Origin: a candidate division KSB1 bacterium
GTDB taxonomy: Bacteria; Zhuqueibacterota; JdFR-76; DREG01
Length of the DNA stretch: 34,773 nucleotides
NCBI GenBank assembly: GCA_022566355.1
Contig: JADFJB010000041.1
Coordinates: 1 to 34,773 of the forward strand
Direction of reading: 5' to 3'
The translations under genes and the position numbers were made by a program. The notes under the pieces were generated by a model. It searched no databases. It was not told the DNA's origin and was given only the letters and a program-made list of their open reading frames with translations. Below are positions 2,859 through 10,216 of the stretch, in pieces. Within the stretch, counting starts at the first letter, position 1; each line of letters starts with the position of its first letter.

Positions 2859-4037
2859 TCAGAAATACGTCGCAAGTCCAAATTGAAATCCGCCGATATT
2901 GACCGTCGGATTTCCTAAAATATCCCGTAGCCAATGCCTGCGGTAGTTGGCTCTAAAGACCGTACTGGCAGTGGGACGAAAGCTCACTCCCAAAACCAGG
3001 GCATTAACTTCATCATAGATATTCTCTTTTGTAGAATTGAATGTCCCCTTGTTATAATCGATTCGTTCCACGCGTACATTGAGATTGATTGTGGCGTTAT
3101 CATAACTCAGCAGATTCCCCCGGTAAATTGGATAAACGATCTCCGCATAACCACCCCATTGTTTCGTGCCATAAATTTCTGAAATATCATCAGGGACATC
3201 GATGGAATTAAATGCCACTTCCCCGCGAATTGAAGCTTTGCCTATTTTTGCGTCCACATCGAAAGCGACTATAGAAAGCTTTCGTTTTTCATCAACTTCC
3301 TCACCTTCCAGCTTATATGAATTGTAGGTGCCGCCATAATAGGAAATGCCAAATTCACCTAATTTCTGGTGGATCAATGCAAACCGGCCGGTAATCATAG
3401 GTTCGCCGTTATTGTCTTCCTCAAATCTTTCTTCGCTTTTTCCGGCTTGCAAAAAGGTTCTGCCTTCTTCATTAAGAATGATGCCGTCGCCAATGCCATT
3501 CACCAAATATAAATCATATGTCACTGAATAATTAGGACGAAAAATTCTGCCGTTAATGCCAAATCCTATTTCCGAAAGTGTTGAGGGAATGATCTGTGTT
3601 GATACCAAAGGTCTCTCGATAAATTCCCATTTTGGGCTGTCATGGTTTTGGTTGAATGACCCTATCGGTGGCAGTATAATTCCACCCCGGAGGATCAGCC
3701 CCGGATTGATCTCAAAATCAAGTAGTGCGGTTTCTAATTCAATTTCTTCCGTACCATGCTCGAATTCCAATTCGGATAAGAATCGTATTCTTTGACTGAT
3801 CGTTGAATAGAGAAAAATATTGAATCGACGCATTTCCATTGAAAATCCTTCGGAAACGCCATCTTCCGAAAAGTAGTTGGTATTGCCCTCCAGATAACCG
3901 CCAACCGCTGTATTGGATTGTCCAATGCCAATAAAAGGACGCTTATAAATTGCGTCCTGACTCGGTGTTCGTTCCTGCCCAAATAATTGCATGGGAAGGA
4001 GTACCATAAGTATTAAAAGTAAACTTTTGATTTTCAT
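2859..4037 (-). CDS. Outer-membrane beta-barrel porin
   Basis: The 392-residue product starts with a classical signal peptide (hydrophobic residues 5-18, cleavage near LFG-QE at 20/21). The rest is a run of amphipathic, aromatic-rich strands and ends in Tyr-Phe, the C-terminal aromatic typical of Bam-inserted barrels. The strand pattern and charged loops resemble phosphate-selective porin O/P-like families, but no specificity residue can be named. It is the third gene of a compact operon, 18 bases after the Rieske gene, which follows the DHOR gene. An outer-membrane channel made together with two envelope redox lipoproteins suggests passage of a substrate or metal complex linked to electron transfer. 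That role is inferred. Confidence 0.85.
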   Translation of the reverse strand: MKIKSLLLILMVLLPMQLFGQERTPSQDAIYKRPFIGIGQSNTAVGGYLEGNTNYFSEDGVSEGFSMEMRRFNIFLYSTISQRIRFLSELEFEHGTEEIELETALLDFEINPGLILRGGIILPPIGSFNQNHDSPKWEFIERPLVSTQIIPSTLSEIGFGINGRIFRPNYSVTYDLYLVNGIGDGIILNEEGRTFLQAGKSEERFEEDNNGEPMITGRFALIHQKLGEFGISYYGGTYNSYKLEGEEVDEKRKLSIVAFDVDAKIGKASIRGEVAFNSIDVPDDISEIYGTKQWGGYAEIVYPIYRGNLLSYDNATINLNVRVERIDYNKGTFNSTKENIYDEVNALVLGVSFRPTASTVFRANYRRHWLRDILGNPTVNIGGFQFGLATYF

Positions 4038-4055
4038 TGTTTTGATTTCCTATTT

Positions 4056-4484
4056 TCACATGATTTGGATATAAATGTTTTCATTGTCAGTTCTTACCGG
4101 AAAGGAAGTTAATTCTTTTTCCGCCGGTGATTTTAAAACTTCACCGGTATTTGAATATTCACTGCCATGACACGGGCAAATTAAAATCTCCGGAGATGGC
4201 CTCACCTCACACCTTTTATGGGTGCATTCTAATAATAATGCGGAGTATTTGTCTTCCGATATTTTCAGGATATAAATGGATGCAGGAAATGCAGGGTACC
4301 GCACCAGGACAAAAGGATCTAATTCGAAATCCGTCTTCGCAACCACTAAATCTCTTTCATGGGTGGTGTAAGCCGCATAGCGATAACTGCTGCAGCCGGA
4401 TAGCAGTGCGTTTACTCCACCACAGACTACAGCCAATGAAATCGTTGCGGTTTTTTGTAAAAAGTTTCTTCGGCTGGGTTTCAT
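4056..4484 (-). CDS. Tat-exported Rieske [2Fe-2S] lipoprotein
   Basis: A 142-residue Rieske protein. The cluster motif is complete: Cys87 and His89 in CTHKRC, and Cys103 and His106 in CPCH, are the expected iron ligands. Cys92 and Cys105 match the stabilising disulfide of bc1-type Rieske proteins. The leader SRRNFLQK at residues 4-11 is a Tat motif, consistent with export of a folded cofactor protein. LLSGC, with Cys31, is a probable lipobox, giving a membrane-anchored periplasmic lipoprotein. There is no cytochrome b gene nearby, so this is not an ordinary bc1 subunit. It sits 12 bases after the di-haem DHOR gene and 18 bases before the porin. A likely role is electron transfer with the DHOR haem protein. 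The partner is inferred from synteny only. Confidence 0.92.
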   Translation of the reverse strand: MKPSRRNFLQKTATISLAVVCGGVNALLSGCSSYRYAAYTTHERDLVVAKTDFELDPFVLVRYPAFPASIYILKISEDKYSALLLECTHKRCEVRPSPEILICPCHGSEYSNTGEVLKSPAEKELTSFPVRTDNENIYIQIM

Positions 4485-4496
4485 ACATTGCTCCGA

Positions 4497-5720
4497 TTAT
4501 AATGACATCAGGAATGCAAATAACTCTTGCTTTTCAGTTTCCGAAAGAGTGTTATAAGCACTTCGGCTATTGGAAGCTTCTCCGCCATGGAGTTGAATTG
4601 CCTGATCCAGGGTCCTTGCACGGCCATCATGAAGATAGAATGGCGAACTTCCCTGGGAGTCAGCCGCTAACCCCAGCCCCCAGAGTGGCGCGGTTCTCCA
4701 TTCAAAAGTCAGGGCAGTGCCTTCAGTATATCCATCGTCCAATTCAGGGCCCATATCATGCATCAATAAATCCGTATAAGGATGGACGGCTACTTCACTC
4801 AATGCTGCTATGTCTGATGTCGTGGTGACCAGAGTCGCCACATGGCAACCCACACAATTGATCTGTTTAAACACTTGTTCACCAGCCTGAACTGTAGGAT
4901 CATTCTCATCCCTTCTTGGTGGAATTTTAAGTGTCCTTACATAGAAAACCACATTACGGACAATACTCGCGCTGACTTCCGGATCTTCTACATCATCGCC
5001 GGTTAATGAACCAGCTTGGCGGTTGAAATTCTCATTCATGTTGAAATCACTGGTGATTCCCATATCCTCCAGATAAGCATTGACGATCTGGTTAAGTAAA
5101 TCGATAGCTCCTGCTTTCTTACCAAATCGACCGATGTATTTACCATTGTTGGGAATATGATGTTCTTTGGCTTCGAAATAATCCGGCGGTGTATGCCAAT
5201 TGGGTACTCCTGAAATTCCATCATTATTTGAGTCGGATGGGTCAGCCAGTGCAAGAAGTGTCTCATCGGGAACGGCTTCAAGATATCCCAAACCCGTTAC
5301 TGCCGGGGGCATTAAGTTTGTAACTCCTGTGGCTTGTGCCGGTATGGTCTCAGGAGGATAGCCAGCGATTGCACGATGCTGCAATTGTGGGCCGCCCTGG
5401 TCTATCATCGGATCCCAGACATTGTTGGTATATCTGCCAAATCTTGTCAAAGTGGTAAGAGGATGGCCTTTTCCGTCGCCGATGTGACAGCTTTCGCACG
5501 CATTAGAAACGAAAATGGGTCCCAATCCATCTTCCGTAGCAAAGATGCGGCCAAATTCCTCATCCCCAATCAAATGATCTTTAAGCTGGCTTGGGGTTAA
5601 ATCCGGAATCGGCTCTGCCAAAACATCTTCCGGTTCAGGCGCAGTTGGCAGAAGATTCTCGCAGCCAAACCAAATCAGGAAAAGGGCAGGCCCTACCATA
5701 AGGTATTTTAATCTATTCAT
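4497..5720 (-). CDS. Di-haem c oxidoreductase lipoprotein (DHOR / DUF1111)
   Basis: The 407-residue protein carries two c-type haem sites, CESCH at 75-79 and CVGCH at 289-293. It also has the family C-terminal signature HDGRART (364-370) followed by HGGEA (378-382). These mark the DHOR/DUF1111 family, called thiol oxidoreductase or putative di-haem peroxidase in databases. The N-terminal hydrophobic stretch ending in LIWFGC gives a lipobox at Cys20, so it should be a lipoprotein outside the cytoplasmic membrane, matured by the cytochrome c system. In other bacteria DUF1111 genes often accompany imelysin-type iron-regulated operons. Here the gene leads an operon with a Rieske protein and a porin and is divergent from feo. 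A near-consensus promoter and an operator-like palindrome lie upstream. The electron donor and substrate are unknown. Confidence 0.92.
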   Translation of the reverse strand: MNRLKYLMVGPALFLIWFGCENLLPTAPEPEDVLAEPIPDLTPSQLKDHLIGDEEFGRIFATEDGLGPIFVSNACESCHIGDGKGHPLTTLTRFGRYTNNVWDPMIDQGGPQLQHRAIAGYPPETIPAQATGVTNLMPPAVTGLGYLEAVPDETLLALADPSDSNNDGISGVPNWHTPPDYFEAKEHHIPNNGKYIGRFGKKAGAIDLLNQIVNAYLEDMGITSDFNMNENFNRQAGSLTGDDVEDPEVSASIVRNVVFYVRTLKIPPRRDENDPTVQAGEQVFKQINCVGCHVATLVTTTSDIAALSEVAVHPYTDLLMHDMGPELDDGYTEGTALTFEWRTAPLWGLGLAADSQGSSPFYLHDGRARTLDQAIQLHGGEASNSRSAYNTLSETEKQELFAFLMSL

Positions 5721-5751: not shown

Positions 5752-5761
5752 TTTAGCTAAA
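5752..5761. promoter_or_regulatory. Secondary TTTAG/CTAAA palindrome
   Basis: TTTAGCTAAA is a perfect 10-bp palindrome inside the likely 5' leader of the DHOR operon, 31 bases before its start codon. It shares the TTTAG half-site with the elements at 6158-6184 and may be a second operator. A chance palindrome in AT-rich DNA is possible. Confidence 0.3.
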
Positions 5762-5776
5762 AATATTATTAGTTAT

Positions 5777-6261: not shown

Positions 6262-6915
6262 ATGATCACACAAGCCATTCAAGATTATGTTAAAGCCATT
6301 TATAAAATATTTATGAGTGACGGCAATGTGACTACAAATTCCATTTCAGATCGTCTTAAAGTGTCCCAGGCATCCGTCACAGGGATGATTAAAAAATTGG
6401 ATGAATTGAAACTCATTCATCACAAACCCTACCAGGGGGTGGAATTGACAGACGCAGGCAAAAAGGTTGCCATGGAAATCATTCGGCATCACAGGTTACT
6501 AGAACTTTATTTGGCAGAAGCAATGGAGTATTCCTGGGATCAGGTACATGAAGAAGCCGAAAAGCTGGAGCATGTGATTTCCGAACAATTTGAAGAGAAA
6601 ATAGCGCTGTTTCTTGGTGATCCAAAAACCGATCCTCATGGCGCTCCAATTCCAACCAAAGATGGCGTGATCGAGAAGAGGAACCTGGAGCCCTTAACCA
6701 TGGCCGAAGCCGGTCAGAAGGTACGGGTAAAACAAATCAGCGATACGAACCCGGAAATGTTGAGATACCTGGGCAAATTAGGAATCTACCCGGAAGTGGT
6801 TGTAAATGTGGTTGAAAGAGCGCCCTTCGAGGGACCACTTGTGGTTCAAATTGGAAAAAGCCGGCATCACCTGGGGCAAGCATTGACTGATAATATATTA
6901 GTAACTGCTGCTTGA
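6262..6915 (+). CDS. DtxR/MntR-family metal-dependent transcriptional regulator
   Basis: The 217-residue protein has the full DtxR layout: winged helix at about 1-65, metal-binding/dimerisation domain at about 66-130, and an SH3/FeoA-like domain at about 143-215. Putative metal ligands align as Asp8, His77, Glu81, His96, Glu100, Glu103 and His104. Asp8 and Glu100 are the residue types found at these positions in Bacillus MntR, where DtxR/IdeR have Met and Cys. MntR Glu11 is replaced by Lys11, so the site is mixed and metal choice (Fe or Mn) is open. It is the first gene of the feo operon and lies just downstream of CCTAA/TTTAG palindromes, so it probably represses its own operon when metal is plentiful and may also control the divergent DHOR operon. 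Confidence 0.9.
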   Translation: MITQAIQDYVKAIYKIFMSDGNVTTNSISDRLKVSQASVTGMIKKLDELKLIHHKPYQGVELTDAGKKVAMEIIRHHRLLELYLAEAMEYSWDQVHEEAEKLEHVISEQFEEKIALFLGDPKTDPHGAPIPTKDGVIEKRNLEPLTMAEAGQKVRVKQISDTNPEMLRYLGKLGIYPEVVVNVVERAPFEGPLVVQIGKSRHHLGQALTDNILVTAA

Positions 6916-6935
6916 ATATAAGAAAGGAATGTGAA

Positions 6936-7967
6936 TTGTTAGTCGATCCTTTAATTTCATTATTCATTATGGCCATTGTTATATTTCTGTTGGTGATTCT
7001 TTTTTGGTCTGATCGTGGACTATTCTGGAAATGGCAGCGTAATAGAAAAGTCACAAAACGTGTTTTAATAGAAGACGCCTTGAAGCATGTGTACGATCAA
7101 GAGTATAAACAGTTGATTTGTACGTTACAAAGCATCTCGGGAAAATTATCCATATCTGGAGATCAAACCGCAAAATTGATGAGTCGTTTGGAAGCTTTAG
7201 GATTAGTCAAAACCCAGAGTGAAGGCTTTATTCTAACGACTGAAGGCCGAACATATGCATTACGAATGATACGAACCCACCGCTTGTGGGAAAGGTATTT
7301 TGCGGATGAAACCGGAATGCCTGAAACCGAATGGCACAGAAAAGCCGAAGAATTAGAACATAAACTGTCCCGTGATGAAATCGAAACGCTCGCAGCTACT
7401 GTGGGACATCCCAGCTACGATCCTCATGGCGATCCGATTCCAACGAATTCAGGACACTTGCCTGCCAAACGAGGCGTACCTCTGGTAGATCTGGGTGAAA
7501 GCGAATTTGCCCGCATTATCCATATCGAAGATGAACCCAAGGAACTGTACGCACAATTGGTAGCGATGGGTTTGCAACTGGGAATGCAGATCCAAATGTT
7601 GGAAAAAACACCGCAACGGGTTTCTTTTGTCGCAGATGGTGTTGAAAATGTCCTGGCTCCGGTTTTGGCTGCTAATGTAACGGTGGAACCTTTACCGAAA
7701 GACCAGGAAGTTGAAGGACCTTTCGATTCCCTGGTATCCCTGGATGTTGGTCAAAAAGGCGAAGTGATCGGCATCTCAAAAGCTTGCCGCGGTCTACAGC
7801 GTCGCCGCATGATGGACCTGGGGATAATCCCGGGTACCGTCATTGAAGTTGAAATGAGAAGCGCTAGCGGTGATCCAACCAGTTACAATATTCGAGATGC
7901 ATCCATTGCATTACGCAACACTCATGCAGAATTAATCCATATCAAGCGATTAGAGGAGAAAAATTGA
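6936..7967 (+). CDS. Membrane-anchored DtxR-like protein with additional FeoA domain
   Basis: TTG at 6936 is the chosen start because AGAAAGGA lies about 7 bases upstream. A longer frame with TTG at 6912 has no such site. The 343-residue product begins with a transmembrane helix (about residues 5-24) and a basic stretch (WKWQRNRK). A DtxR-type winged helix (about 42-105) and metal/dimerisation region follow, with His115, Glu119, His134, Glu138, Glu141 and His142 aligned to the first regulator, and Asp47 aligned to its Asp8. Next come an SH3-like domain (about 190-250) and a separate FeoA-type domain (about 265-335, GLQRRRMMDLGIIPG). FeoA is normally a small free protein assisting FeoB, and no free feoA exists here. 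A role as tethered metal sensor or FeoB partner is inferred. DNA binding from the membrane is uncertain. Confidence 0.82.
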   Translation: MLVDPLISLFIMAIVIFLLVILFWSDRGLFWKWQRNRKVTKRVLIEDALKHVYDQEYKQLICTLQSISGKLSISGDQTAKLMSRLEALGLVKTQSEGFILTTEGRTYALRMIRTHRLWERYFADETGMPETEWHRKAEELEHKLSRDEIETLAATVGHPSYDPHGDPIPTNSGHLPAKRGVPLVDLGESEFARIIHIEDEPKELYAQLVAMGLQLGMQIQMLEKTPQRVSFVADGVENVLAPVLAANVTVEPLPKDQEVEGPFDSLVSLDVGQKGEVIGISKACRGLQRRRMMDLGIIPGTVIEVEMRSASGDPTSYNIRDASIALRNTHAELIHIKRLEEKN

Positions 7968-8783
7968 ATGTCTAAGAATAACCACCAGGGCTGTGAAACC
8001 TGTCCGGTCCACAATGTTGGCAATCTCACCAAATTAGGTGTGAATATGAAATCCTGGGATTATGTGGTTGCTTTGGCGGGTAACCCGAATACCGGAAAAA
8101 GCACAGTTTTTAACAGTCTTACCGGCTTACATCAACATACTGGCAATTGGCCGGGAAAAACCGTAGTCAGGGCTGAAGGTGGATTTGTTTATGGTGAAAA
8201 GCGTTACAAAATTGTCGATCTGCCCGGTACATATTCCCTGCTTTCAACCAGCACGGATGAAGAAGTGGCGCGAGATTTTATTCTGTTCGGAAAACCGGAT
8301 GTTACCGTGATTGTTGTGGATGCCACGCGACTCGAACGCAATCTTAACTTGGTGCTGCAGGTCCTCGAGATCACGGATCGTGCGGTTGTATGTGTGAACC
8401 TCATAGATGAAGCGAAACGTCATAAATTACAGATCGATGATCAGAAGCTGGTTAAACAGTTGGGCGTCCCGGTGGTTCCCACGAGTGCTCGGTCTGGTCA
8501 AGGCATACCCGAGCTATTAAAAGCAATAAGCGAAGTGTCCACAGGGACATTTGTCTGTAACCCCCATCGCATTGAGAGTGGTTCGAAAGAGTTGAAGCGT
8601 GCAATCAACCAGCTCACTGGAAAAATTGAAAGCAGATTTCCGGGTTTAATCAATGCTCGCTGGGTTTCCTTGCGGCTTCTGGAGGGAGACGTGCGCATGA
8701 TCGAAGCGGTGCGCACCGGGGAACTGGGTGAATTGATTAAGCCGGTAGAAGTAGAAACCATTTTTGCAGTGGGGGCAGCGTAA
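7968..8783 (+). CDS. feoB: FeoB GTPase domain protein (split FeoB, N-terminal part)
   Basis: The 271-residue product is the cytosolic G-protein domain of the ferrous iron transporter FeoB. All G motifs are readable: GNPNTGKST (38-46), the G2 region [13 protein letters not shown] (84-87), NLID (144-147) and SAR (173-175). A helical tail resembling the FeoB GDI region follows. The protein then stops, where FeoB normally continues into its membrane region. The N-terminus adds a small Cys/His-containing segment, CETCPVH, which is not part of the usual core. The start ATG follows the previous stop directly, with AGAGGAGAA as ribosome-binding site. The next gene supplies the membrane part and overlaps by one base (TAATG), so the halves are almost certainly co-translated and assemble. 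Confidence 0.93.
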
Positions 8784-10216
8784 TGAATCAAATACATCAG
8801 CCAAACGAAGCCATACTCGCCGAAGCCAATAGCCTGCGCTGGGAATTGGGAGAGAATTTGCATGATTCTGTCATCGAATCGATCTACCAGGATGCCGCCA
8901 AGATTGCAGACCAGGTTGTGACAAAAACAGGCGAGAAGCTGAAATTCAACTGGGAGCGAACTCTCGACAACCTGCTCACCAGCCGCCTAACCGGATTCCC
9001 AATCATGCTGTTATTGCTAACTGCTGTTTTCTGGATTACGATTGCCGGTGCGAATGTGCCTTCCAAGATGTTGGCCGTCCTTTTGATCGATAACTTCCAT
9101 CCGGTGCTGAAAAGTCTGGCTGCCGGCATCGGCATGCCCTGGTGGCTGGATGGACTTCTGATCGACGGCACCTACTTGGCCGGGGCCTGGGTGGTCAGCG
9201 TCATGCTGCCGCCGATGGCCATATTCTTTCCGTTGTTCACATTACTGGAAGATTTCGGCTACCTGCCTCGGGTGGTTTTTAATCTCGACAATCTGTTCAA
9301 GAAAGCCGGAGCACATGGCAAGCAGGCTTTAACGATGTCCATGGGATATGGCTGCAATGCGGCAGGCATTATCGCCACAAGAATCATCGATAGTCCCAGA
9401 GAGCGCTTAATTGCCATCATCACCAATAATTTTGCCCTGTGCAACGGCCGCTGGCCGACCCAGATTCTGATCGCTACCCTGTTTATCGGAGTGTTGGCGC
9501 CGACGGGACTCGCCAGCCTGGTTTCGGCATCCGCCGTGGTAAGCATTGCCGTTCTGGGAATATTTCTGACCTTTGTCACTTCGTGGTTTTTGTCCCGAAC
9601 CATGCTGAAGGGCGAAGCATCATCTTTCAGCCTGGAGCTTCCGCCGTACCGGCCGCCGCGAATCTTGCGTACATTATACACATCCCTAATCGATAGAACC
9701 ATTATCGTGCTCTGGCGGGCGGTGGTTTTCGCCGTGCCGGCGGGGGCGGTCATTTGGCTTCTTTCGAATATTCAGGTAGCCGACGTCAGCCTTGCGGAAC
9801 ACATCATGAGTTTTATGGACCCCTTCGGCATCTTAATAGGGCTGAACGGCGTGATCCTGCTCGCCTATATCGTTGCCATTCCCGCGAATGAAATCGTCAT
9901 TCCTACCATACTCATGTTAACAGTATTGGGCGCCAAACAACTCTCTGGTTTCGGCGCAGGAGACGGCGTTATGTTTGAGTTAAATGATATGGATGCTTAT
10001 ATGTCGGTGTTAAAGGCAGGCGGCTGGACTTTGTTAACTGCCGTCAATCTAATGTTGTTCAGCCTTTTGCATAATCCTTGCTCCACTACGTTATACACAA
10101 TCTATAAGGAAACCGGCAGCAAAAAATGGACTGCGGTTTCTGCTCTTCTTCCTGTAGTCATGGGATTAGCTTTGTGCTTTATAGTAGCCCAGGTATGGAG
10201 GTTGGTAGCGGGATAA
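8783..10216 (+). CDS. feoB: FeoB membrane permease protein (split FeoB, C-terminal part)
   Basis: The 477-residue protein is the integral membrane part of FeoB. It opens with the helical linker normally joining GTPase and channel, then enters the first membrane helix near residue 70. Family motifs are present: [22 protein letters not shown] (FeoB Gate motif with the conserved Cys), and [17 protein letters not shown] near the C-terminus. About 8-10 membrane segments are apparent. Together with the GTPase protein the length is 748 residues, matching a normal single-chain FeoB, so the split removes nothing obvious. The ATG overlaps the preceding stop. Ferrous iron import across the cytoplasmic membrane is the expected role. 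No feoC was seen. Confidence 0.93.

Follow-up and report, generated by a model that had tools for sequence, protein, structure and literature searches.

A membrane-anchored DtxR-FeoA protein encoded beside feoB, a candidate metal-sensing FeoA subunit of the FeoB transporter

The window analysed here is a 34,773-nucleotide stretch of DNA from a candidate division KSB1 bacterium (contig JADFJB010000041.1), and directly ahead of its split feoB lies a gene for a protein, here called TM-DtxR-FeoA, in which a membrane helix, a DtxR-type metal sensor and a true FeoA domain are joined. This protein is probably, at a rough estimate of two in three, the FeoA subunit of FeoB, bearing a DtxR sensor and a membrane anchor on its N-terminus, and it would serve direct metal feedback rather than gene regulation. 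The reading is based on the architecture of the protein, its near-obligate pairing with feoB, its interchange with free FeoA, a metal site that has been kept and a DNA-recognition surface that has been lost.

Gene and protein architecture

The open reading frame was read from a TTG start at 6936, with coding sequence to 7964 followed by a stop codon, and specifies 343 amino acids. Its features are as follows.

6921..6928, +: likely ribosome-binding site AGAAAGGA ahead of the TTG start (direct sequence reading)
6936..7967, +: TM-DtxR-FeoA protein, TTG start, stop included (ORF, Pfam, AlphaFold)
6948..7004, +: N-terminal transmembrane helix, residues 5-23, then a positively charged flank (hydropathy, charge, AlphaFold helix)
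7065..7238, +: winged helix, residues 44-101, with a degenerate recognition helix at residues 74-88 (conservation, AlphaFold, Foldseek)
7239..7445, +: metal-binding/dimerisation domain, residues 102-170, with H115, E119, H134, E138, E141 and H142 (Pfam PF02742, conservation)
7476..7691, +: first SH3-like domain (FeoA1), residues 181-252, DtxR-type (PF04023, 27.9 bits)
7725..7949, +: second, true FeoA domain (FeoA2), residues 264-338 (PF04023, 55.1 bits; FeoA structures; orthologous free FeoAs)

An earlier note, made from the sequence alone, had described a transmembrane helix, a winged helix, an intact metal site, an SH3-like domain and a true FeoA domain, and this order was borne out by Pfam, AlphaFold and conservation, the C-terminal domain matching the FeoA HMM at the 55.1 bits given above. 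Over the whole protein Pfam returned Fe_dep_repr_C (PF02742) at 89.6 bits and two copies of FeoA at 78.7 bits, above the cut-off. In the AlphaFold model, for which an alignment of 82 sequences was the input (mean pLDDT 95.1, pTM 0.89), a helix at residues 5-23 is followed by a long one at 29-57 that leads into the winged helix; the metal domain and a pair of SH3-like barrels come after it. In Foldseek searches the first three domains fall on Mn-dependent DtxR repressors (5zr6, with a target TM-score of 0.92, ScaR and SloR). The last barrel, FeoA2, matches solved FeoA structures, including the FeoA domain of Bacteroides fragilis FeoAB. FeoA1 is closer to the SH3 domain of DtxR than to FeoA2. 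Against the NCBIfam MntR equivalog (cut-off 350 bits) TM-DtxR-FeoA scored 118 bits and its soluble neighbour, also below, 209. With a single membrane helix and the ABC-3 domain absent (Pfam, AlphaFold), the window's protein is not an ABC-3 permease-DtxR fusion; nor, being 343 residues long with a DtxR portion and a membrane helix, is it a small stand-alone or FeoB-fused cytosolic FeoA.

Of 83 relatives, 80 have the helix, scored as a 19-residue window with a mean hydropathy of at least 1.6 inside the first 45 residues; all 57 soluble DtxRs from the fetched loci lack it. Lysyl- and arginyl-residues average 5.75 in the 22 positions past the helix as against 0.11 ahead of it, and because the positive flank follows the helix the sensor and FeoA domains are placed in the cytosol. 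Start codons in the relatives, for the most part ATG or GTG, lie no more than a few codons from the equivalent position, just ahead of the hydrophobic stretch. A soluble start downstream of the helix in all orthologues, which the earlier note had set against its own proposal, was rejected, since nearly all of them begin directly before it.

The feo operon and its surroundings

TM-DtxR-FeoA is the second of four genes, in the order soluble DtxR, TM-DtxR-FeoA, FeoB G-domain gene and FeoB membrane-domain gene. The other three are:

6262..6915, +: soluble regulator of the DtxR/MntR type, DNA-binding domain intact (PF01325 6.4e-15, PF02742, FeoA/SH3)
7968..8783, +: separate FeoB G-domain gene, with a CxxC-P-V-H extension at 7992-8012 (PF02421 1.1e-60, motif)
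8783..10216, +: separate FeoB membrane-domain gene of the GCNAAG type (PF07670, PF07664, motif)

The soluble DtxR is the probable transcriptional regulator of the operon. Upstream of its gene, a search for operators gave no more than a weak AT-rich palindrome (5754-5775), with promoter hits at chance level. Free feoA is absent from the window's operon, as had been noticed before, and a search of the whole genome found FeoA domains only in TM-DtxR-FeoA and in the soluble DtxR neighbour; a second, classical FeoB in this genome is truncated where its contig begins, however, so that a free feoA may have been missed at that gap. The genome also carries a second FeoB membrane half (L145, G000:C111), 67% identical, with no G-domain gene adjoining.

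The FeoB G-domains linked to this family carry an N-terminal CxxC-P-x-H extension, and of the linked loci examined about seven lack the CxxC; the extension, possibly a metal or redox site, is absent from classical FeoBs. The linked membrane halves have GCNAAG, replaced by GCNAAA in Holophagales and in one Thermoanaerobaculia bin. At this place the readable classical FeoBs from the same phylum have GCxVPA or GCNIPA, and their identity to the linked membrane halves is only 21-29%. Beside the Feo operon, at 2859-5720 on the minus strand of the window, lies a cassette of a di-haem cytochrome (DHOR), a Rieske protein and an outer-membrane porin. The same cassette stands by the Feo operon in distant genomes (loci L038 and L148, and in weaker form L054 and L087), which suggests a periplasmic redox step.

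Distribution and pairing with feoB

TM-DtxR-FeoA was found in 19 of 82 genomes of the window's own phylum, one of these being a chimaera without the helix. In that chimaera (L020 and L151, G078:C448) a soluble DtxR N-terminus is joined, near a conserved DPHGDPIPT stretch, to the C-terminus of the TM-DtxR-FeoA family directly ahead of feoB-G, either through a real recombination or through an assembly error. A scan of GTDB added more than 70 loci, mostly from metagenome-assembled genomes, and places the family in at least nine bacterial phyla, the taxa being Bacteroidota, Ignavibacteria, Calditrichota, Chloroflexota, Gemmatimonadota, Acidobacteriota, Verrucomicrobiota, Planctomycetota and Myxococcota.

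Wherever a main locus has room for it, FeoB-G directly follows TM-DtxR-FeoA: 86 loci were counted, and three overlapping gene pairs come in addition. Six loci stand outside the count: these three, in which FeoB-G is plainly present, and three that run off the contig. The 86 comprise 60 with a split feoB, 21 with a single-chain feoB and 5 in which this part is not covered. Whether the protein always co-occurs with split feoB had been raised in the earlier note; it does not, and an obligate link to splitting was rejected, about a quarter of the loci being single-chain. Because of these 21 loci the pairing is with FeoB itself rather than with its division. In no counted locus is the slot next to TM-DtxR-FeoA taken by a free FeoA, and the soluble DtxR directly upstream is optional (33 loci with, 45 without, among those with room).

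The system is rare in Bacteroidia, where the same three of 295 genomes carry both TM-DtxR-FeoA and its FeoB. In one genome (G458) the protein is encoded away from its FeoB. In two others (G396 and G466; L226 and L227 with L230 and L231) it lies next to the G-domain gene, with the FeoB membrane half on another contig. A few divergent relatives sit with other FeoBs.

Interchange with free FeoA

Replacement was studied in 249 genomes sampled from one Chloroflexota class. TM-DtxR-FeoA and the window-type FeoB occurred together in 60 of these, FeoB alone in 8, TM-DtxR-FeoA alone in 6 and neither in 175. Seven of the eight genomes with FeoB only have a small free FeoA directly before the split feoB, scoring 91-109 bits with the FeoA2 model, and two genomes of the window's phylum have a free FeoA in the same slot, at 94 and 98 bits; free FeoAs that belong to that phylum's other Feo systems reach at most 44 bits. 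Because nine genomes thus hold an FeoA2-like free FeoA at this position, the slot takes either a free FeoA or TM-DtxR-FeoA. By their sequences the slot-filling FeoAs and FeoA2 are each other's closest kin and orthologous. The earlier proposal that the protein may replace FeoA and act directly on FeoB is, as an interpretation, well backed by the near-invariant feoB neighbour and the orthologous free FeoA; a split feoB is not needed for it.

Fusions to other transporters

In three genomes of Chloroflexota (Anaerolineae) TM-DtxR-FeoA is fused in frame, at a homologous junction, to an Nramp/MntH transporter:

L208, 1578-3851, +: TM-DtxR-FeoA-Nramp fusion
L209, 854-3145, +: TM-DtxR-FeoA-Nramp fusion
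L210, 3017-5284, -: TM-DtxR-FeoA-Nramp fusion

The one fusion scanned passes the NCBI MntH model (523.6 bits, cut-off 430). In the tree the fusions fall within the TM-DtxR-FeoA clade, which is separate from every soluble DtxR (96/97). Their FeoA2 signature and one metal ligand are weakened, and they may work differently. No further examples were found among 400 genomes drawn from the phylum.

Two ABC-3 metal permeases of Bacteroidia carry a C-terminal DtxR domain (L236, 736-2217, +; L237, 1489-2973, -), and their junction past the last helix resembles the membrane anchor of TM-DtxR-FeoA. The full TM-DtxR-FeoA model aligns across this junction with 155-179 bits, but the N-terminal 45 residues alone score only 6-8 bits; that the membrane helix arose from an ABC-3 permease is therefore no more than a suggestion.

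The metal site

The DtxR-family ligand positions correspond to D47, H115, E119, H134, E138, E141 and H142, of which D47 sits in the winged helix and the others in the metal domain. Five of them (H115, E119, H134, E141 and H142) do not vary among 83 sequences; D47 is conserved in 80, and 64 have Glu at position 138. The primary-site ligands are Asp/Glu/Glu/His, the set of manganese regulators. It is listed for BsMntR as the Mn site; in DtxR, an iron repressor, the set is Met/Cys/Glu/His (PMC4805248). Sensing of Fe(II), which the earlier note had put forward as possible, is unproven, the ligands being of the Mn type.

It is quite possible, though tentative, that Mn(II) and not Fe(II) is the metal imported and sensed, by a Meo-type FeoB with a Mn-sensing subunit. 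The primary site is that of BsMntR, the nearest solved structures are Mn repressors, and three genomes have the module joined to an MntH-type Nramp. In addition, in most of the genomes checked there is a free FeoA apart from this protein, generally together with a classical FeoB, and Mn-specific Feo systems have already been proposed (PMC8749426). However, DR2539, a repressor that aligns with the same ligand residues as TM-DtxR-FeoA, responds to both Mn and Fe (PMC3327659), so that the ligand set does not decide the metal, and the haem and Rieske genes next to the operon could indicate redox chemistry of the kind that iron undergoes. A role for Mn(II) concerns the metal and is compatible with TM-DtxR-FeoA as an FeoA subunit.

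The DNA-recognition surface

The DNA-contact regions were compared in 37 loci that hold both TM-DtxR-FeoA and a soluble DtxR. Metal-domain identity is equal in the two groups (0.575 and 0.575). Identity in the recognition helix is 0.19 in TM-DtxR-FeoA as against 0.44 in the soluble neighbours, and in the wing 0.33 as against 0.49; the mean net charge of the recognition helix is -0.32 as against +1.11 (paired p ~0.0003, a guide only, the loci being related). FeoA1 shows a conservation of 0.39, compared with 0.25 for the SH3 domain of the soluble proteins. The Pfam DtxR DNA-binding model PF01325 finds no match in TM-DtxR-FeoA and matches the soluble neighbour at 6.4e-15. On these sequence comparisons it is the metal site and the FeoA domains, and no longer the contact with DNA, that selection seems to act on. 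The winged-helix fold itself is intact (AlphaFold, Foldseek), and for that reason TM-DtxR-FeoA may still bind DNA to some extent.

These data bear on the alternative, also raised in the earlier note, of a membrane-bound gene regulator, either acting as a tethered transcription factor or cleaved from the membrane to release a DNA-binding DtxR in the manner of YtgC-YtgR. YtgR, a DtxR fused to a membrane protein, provides a precedent, for it is cut and binds DNA (PMC5599777), and the modelled DtxR fold of TM-DtxR-FeoA is complete, with Mn repressors as its best matches. Such a role is nevertheless unlikely: relative to soluble DtxRs of the same loci the recognition helix and wing have lost conservation and positive charge, the helix being unconstrained and on average slightly negative, and PF01325 does not match. 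Moreover, 33 of the 78 loci with room have, immediately upstream, a soluble DtxR whose DNA-binding domain is intact, and a free FeoA alone can occupy the slot.

FeoC is a small winged-helix partner of FeoB. That TM-DtxR-FeoA is an FeoA with a FeoC-like winged helix, which touches FeoB and not DNA (for the FeoC-FeoB interaction see PMC8749426), and with a purely structural metal domain would agree with the lost DNA-contact signature but is improbable, as the metal ligands are among the most conserved residues, five of them invariant in 83 sequences, and a structural role would not need that.

Proposed role

As a sensor-bearing FeoA subunit, TM-DtxR-FeoA would be held by its anchor on the cytosolic face of the membrane beside FeoB. 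Cytosolic Fe(II) or Mn(II) would fill the DtxR site and change the shape of the domain or its dimer state, which in turn would alter the seating of FeoA2 on the FeoB G-domain; GTPase gating and import would then fall, a direct product feedback on transport. Work on other FeoAs has found that FeoA contacts the FeoB G-domain in a nucleotide-dependent manner and slows GTP hydrolysis (PMC8980893). The effect may be a shut-off, as proposed, or an activation. The soluble DtxR next door, where present, would handle transcription.

On balance we lean towards a single conversion in which a DtxR sensor gave up repression through DNA binding and became an allosteric subunit anchored in the membrane, reading cytosolic metal and gating importers directly, FeoB through a fused FeoA first and Nramp later by covalent fusion, with spread across many phyla. 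If this is true, a repressor family has been repurposed for control at the protein level, and the label "transcriptional regulator", given on the strength of a DtxR domain, would mislead for such proteins. The role of FeoA has been described as unresolved, and little is known of how bacterial metal importers are shut off after synthesis; a well-understood metal sensor wired to FeoA, together with nine natural replacements by free FeoA, makes both questions directly testable.

Comparison with known systems

No description of a membrane-anchored DtxR-FeoA or of a DtxR-Nramp fusion was found in the open-access literature, subscription papers and preprints lying outside the search, and a census of FeoA fusions excluded DtxR-fused FeoAs by design (PMC8980893). 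Twin-FeoA DtxRs such as PgMntR and permease-DtxR fusions are known; a membrane-anchored DtxR-FeoA subunit of FeoB appears new to the open literature searched.

Free FeoA, and FeoAB of Bacteroides fragilis, share with TM-DtxR-FeoA the FeoA2 domain, the place before feoB and the expected contact with the G-domain, but free FeoA lacks the sensor and the membrane helix. PgMntR of Porphyromonas gingivalis, compared here by its description, likewise contains a winged helix, a metal domain and a pair of FeoA domains and is linked to a Mn-importing FeoB (PMC4805248). It is described, however, as a soluble DNA-binding repressor with no membrane helix (PMC4805248), whereas TM-DtxR-FeoA has the helix and has lost conservation of its DNA contacts. 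ScaR, SloR and MntR share the fold of the first three domains (5zr6) and the primary ligand set, yet they are soluble, bind DNA and have no second FeoA. FeoC, likened by description, is a winged helix associated with FeoB as here, but is encoded by a small separate gene, mainly in Gammaproteobacteria, and has no metal domain or FeoA.

In YtgC-YtgR of Chlamydia and the ABC-3 permease-DtxR fusions a DtxR domain is attached to a metal-transport membrane protein, as in the present case, and the L236 and L237 fusions share with TM-DtxR-FeoA a 'PxKGL...ED.LK' junction between membrane and DtxR portions. YtgR is cleaved and binds DNA (PMC5599777), whereas TM-DtxR-FeoA has its FeoB partner in trans, an FeoA domain and a decayed recognition helix.
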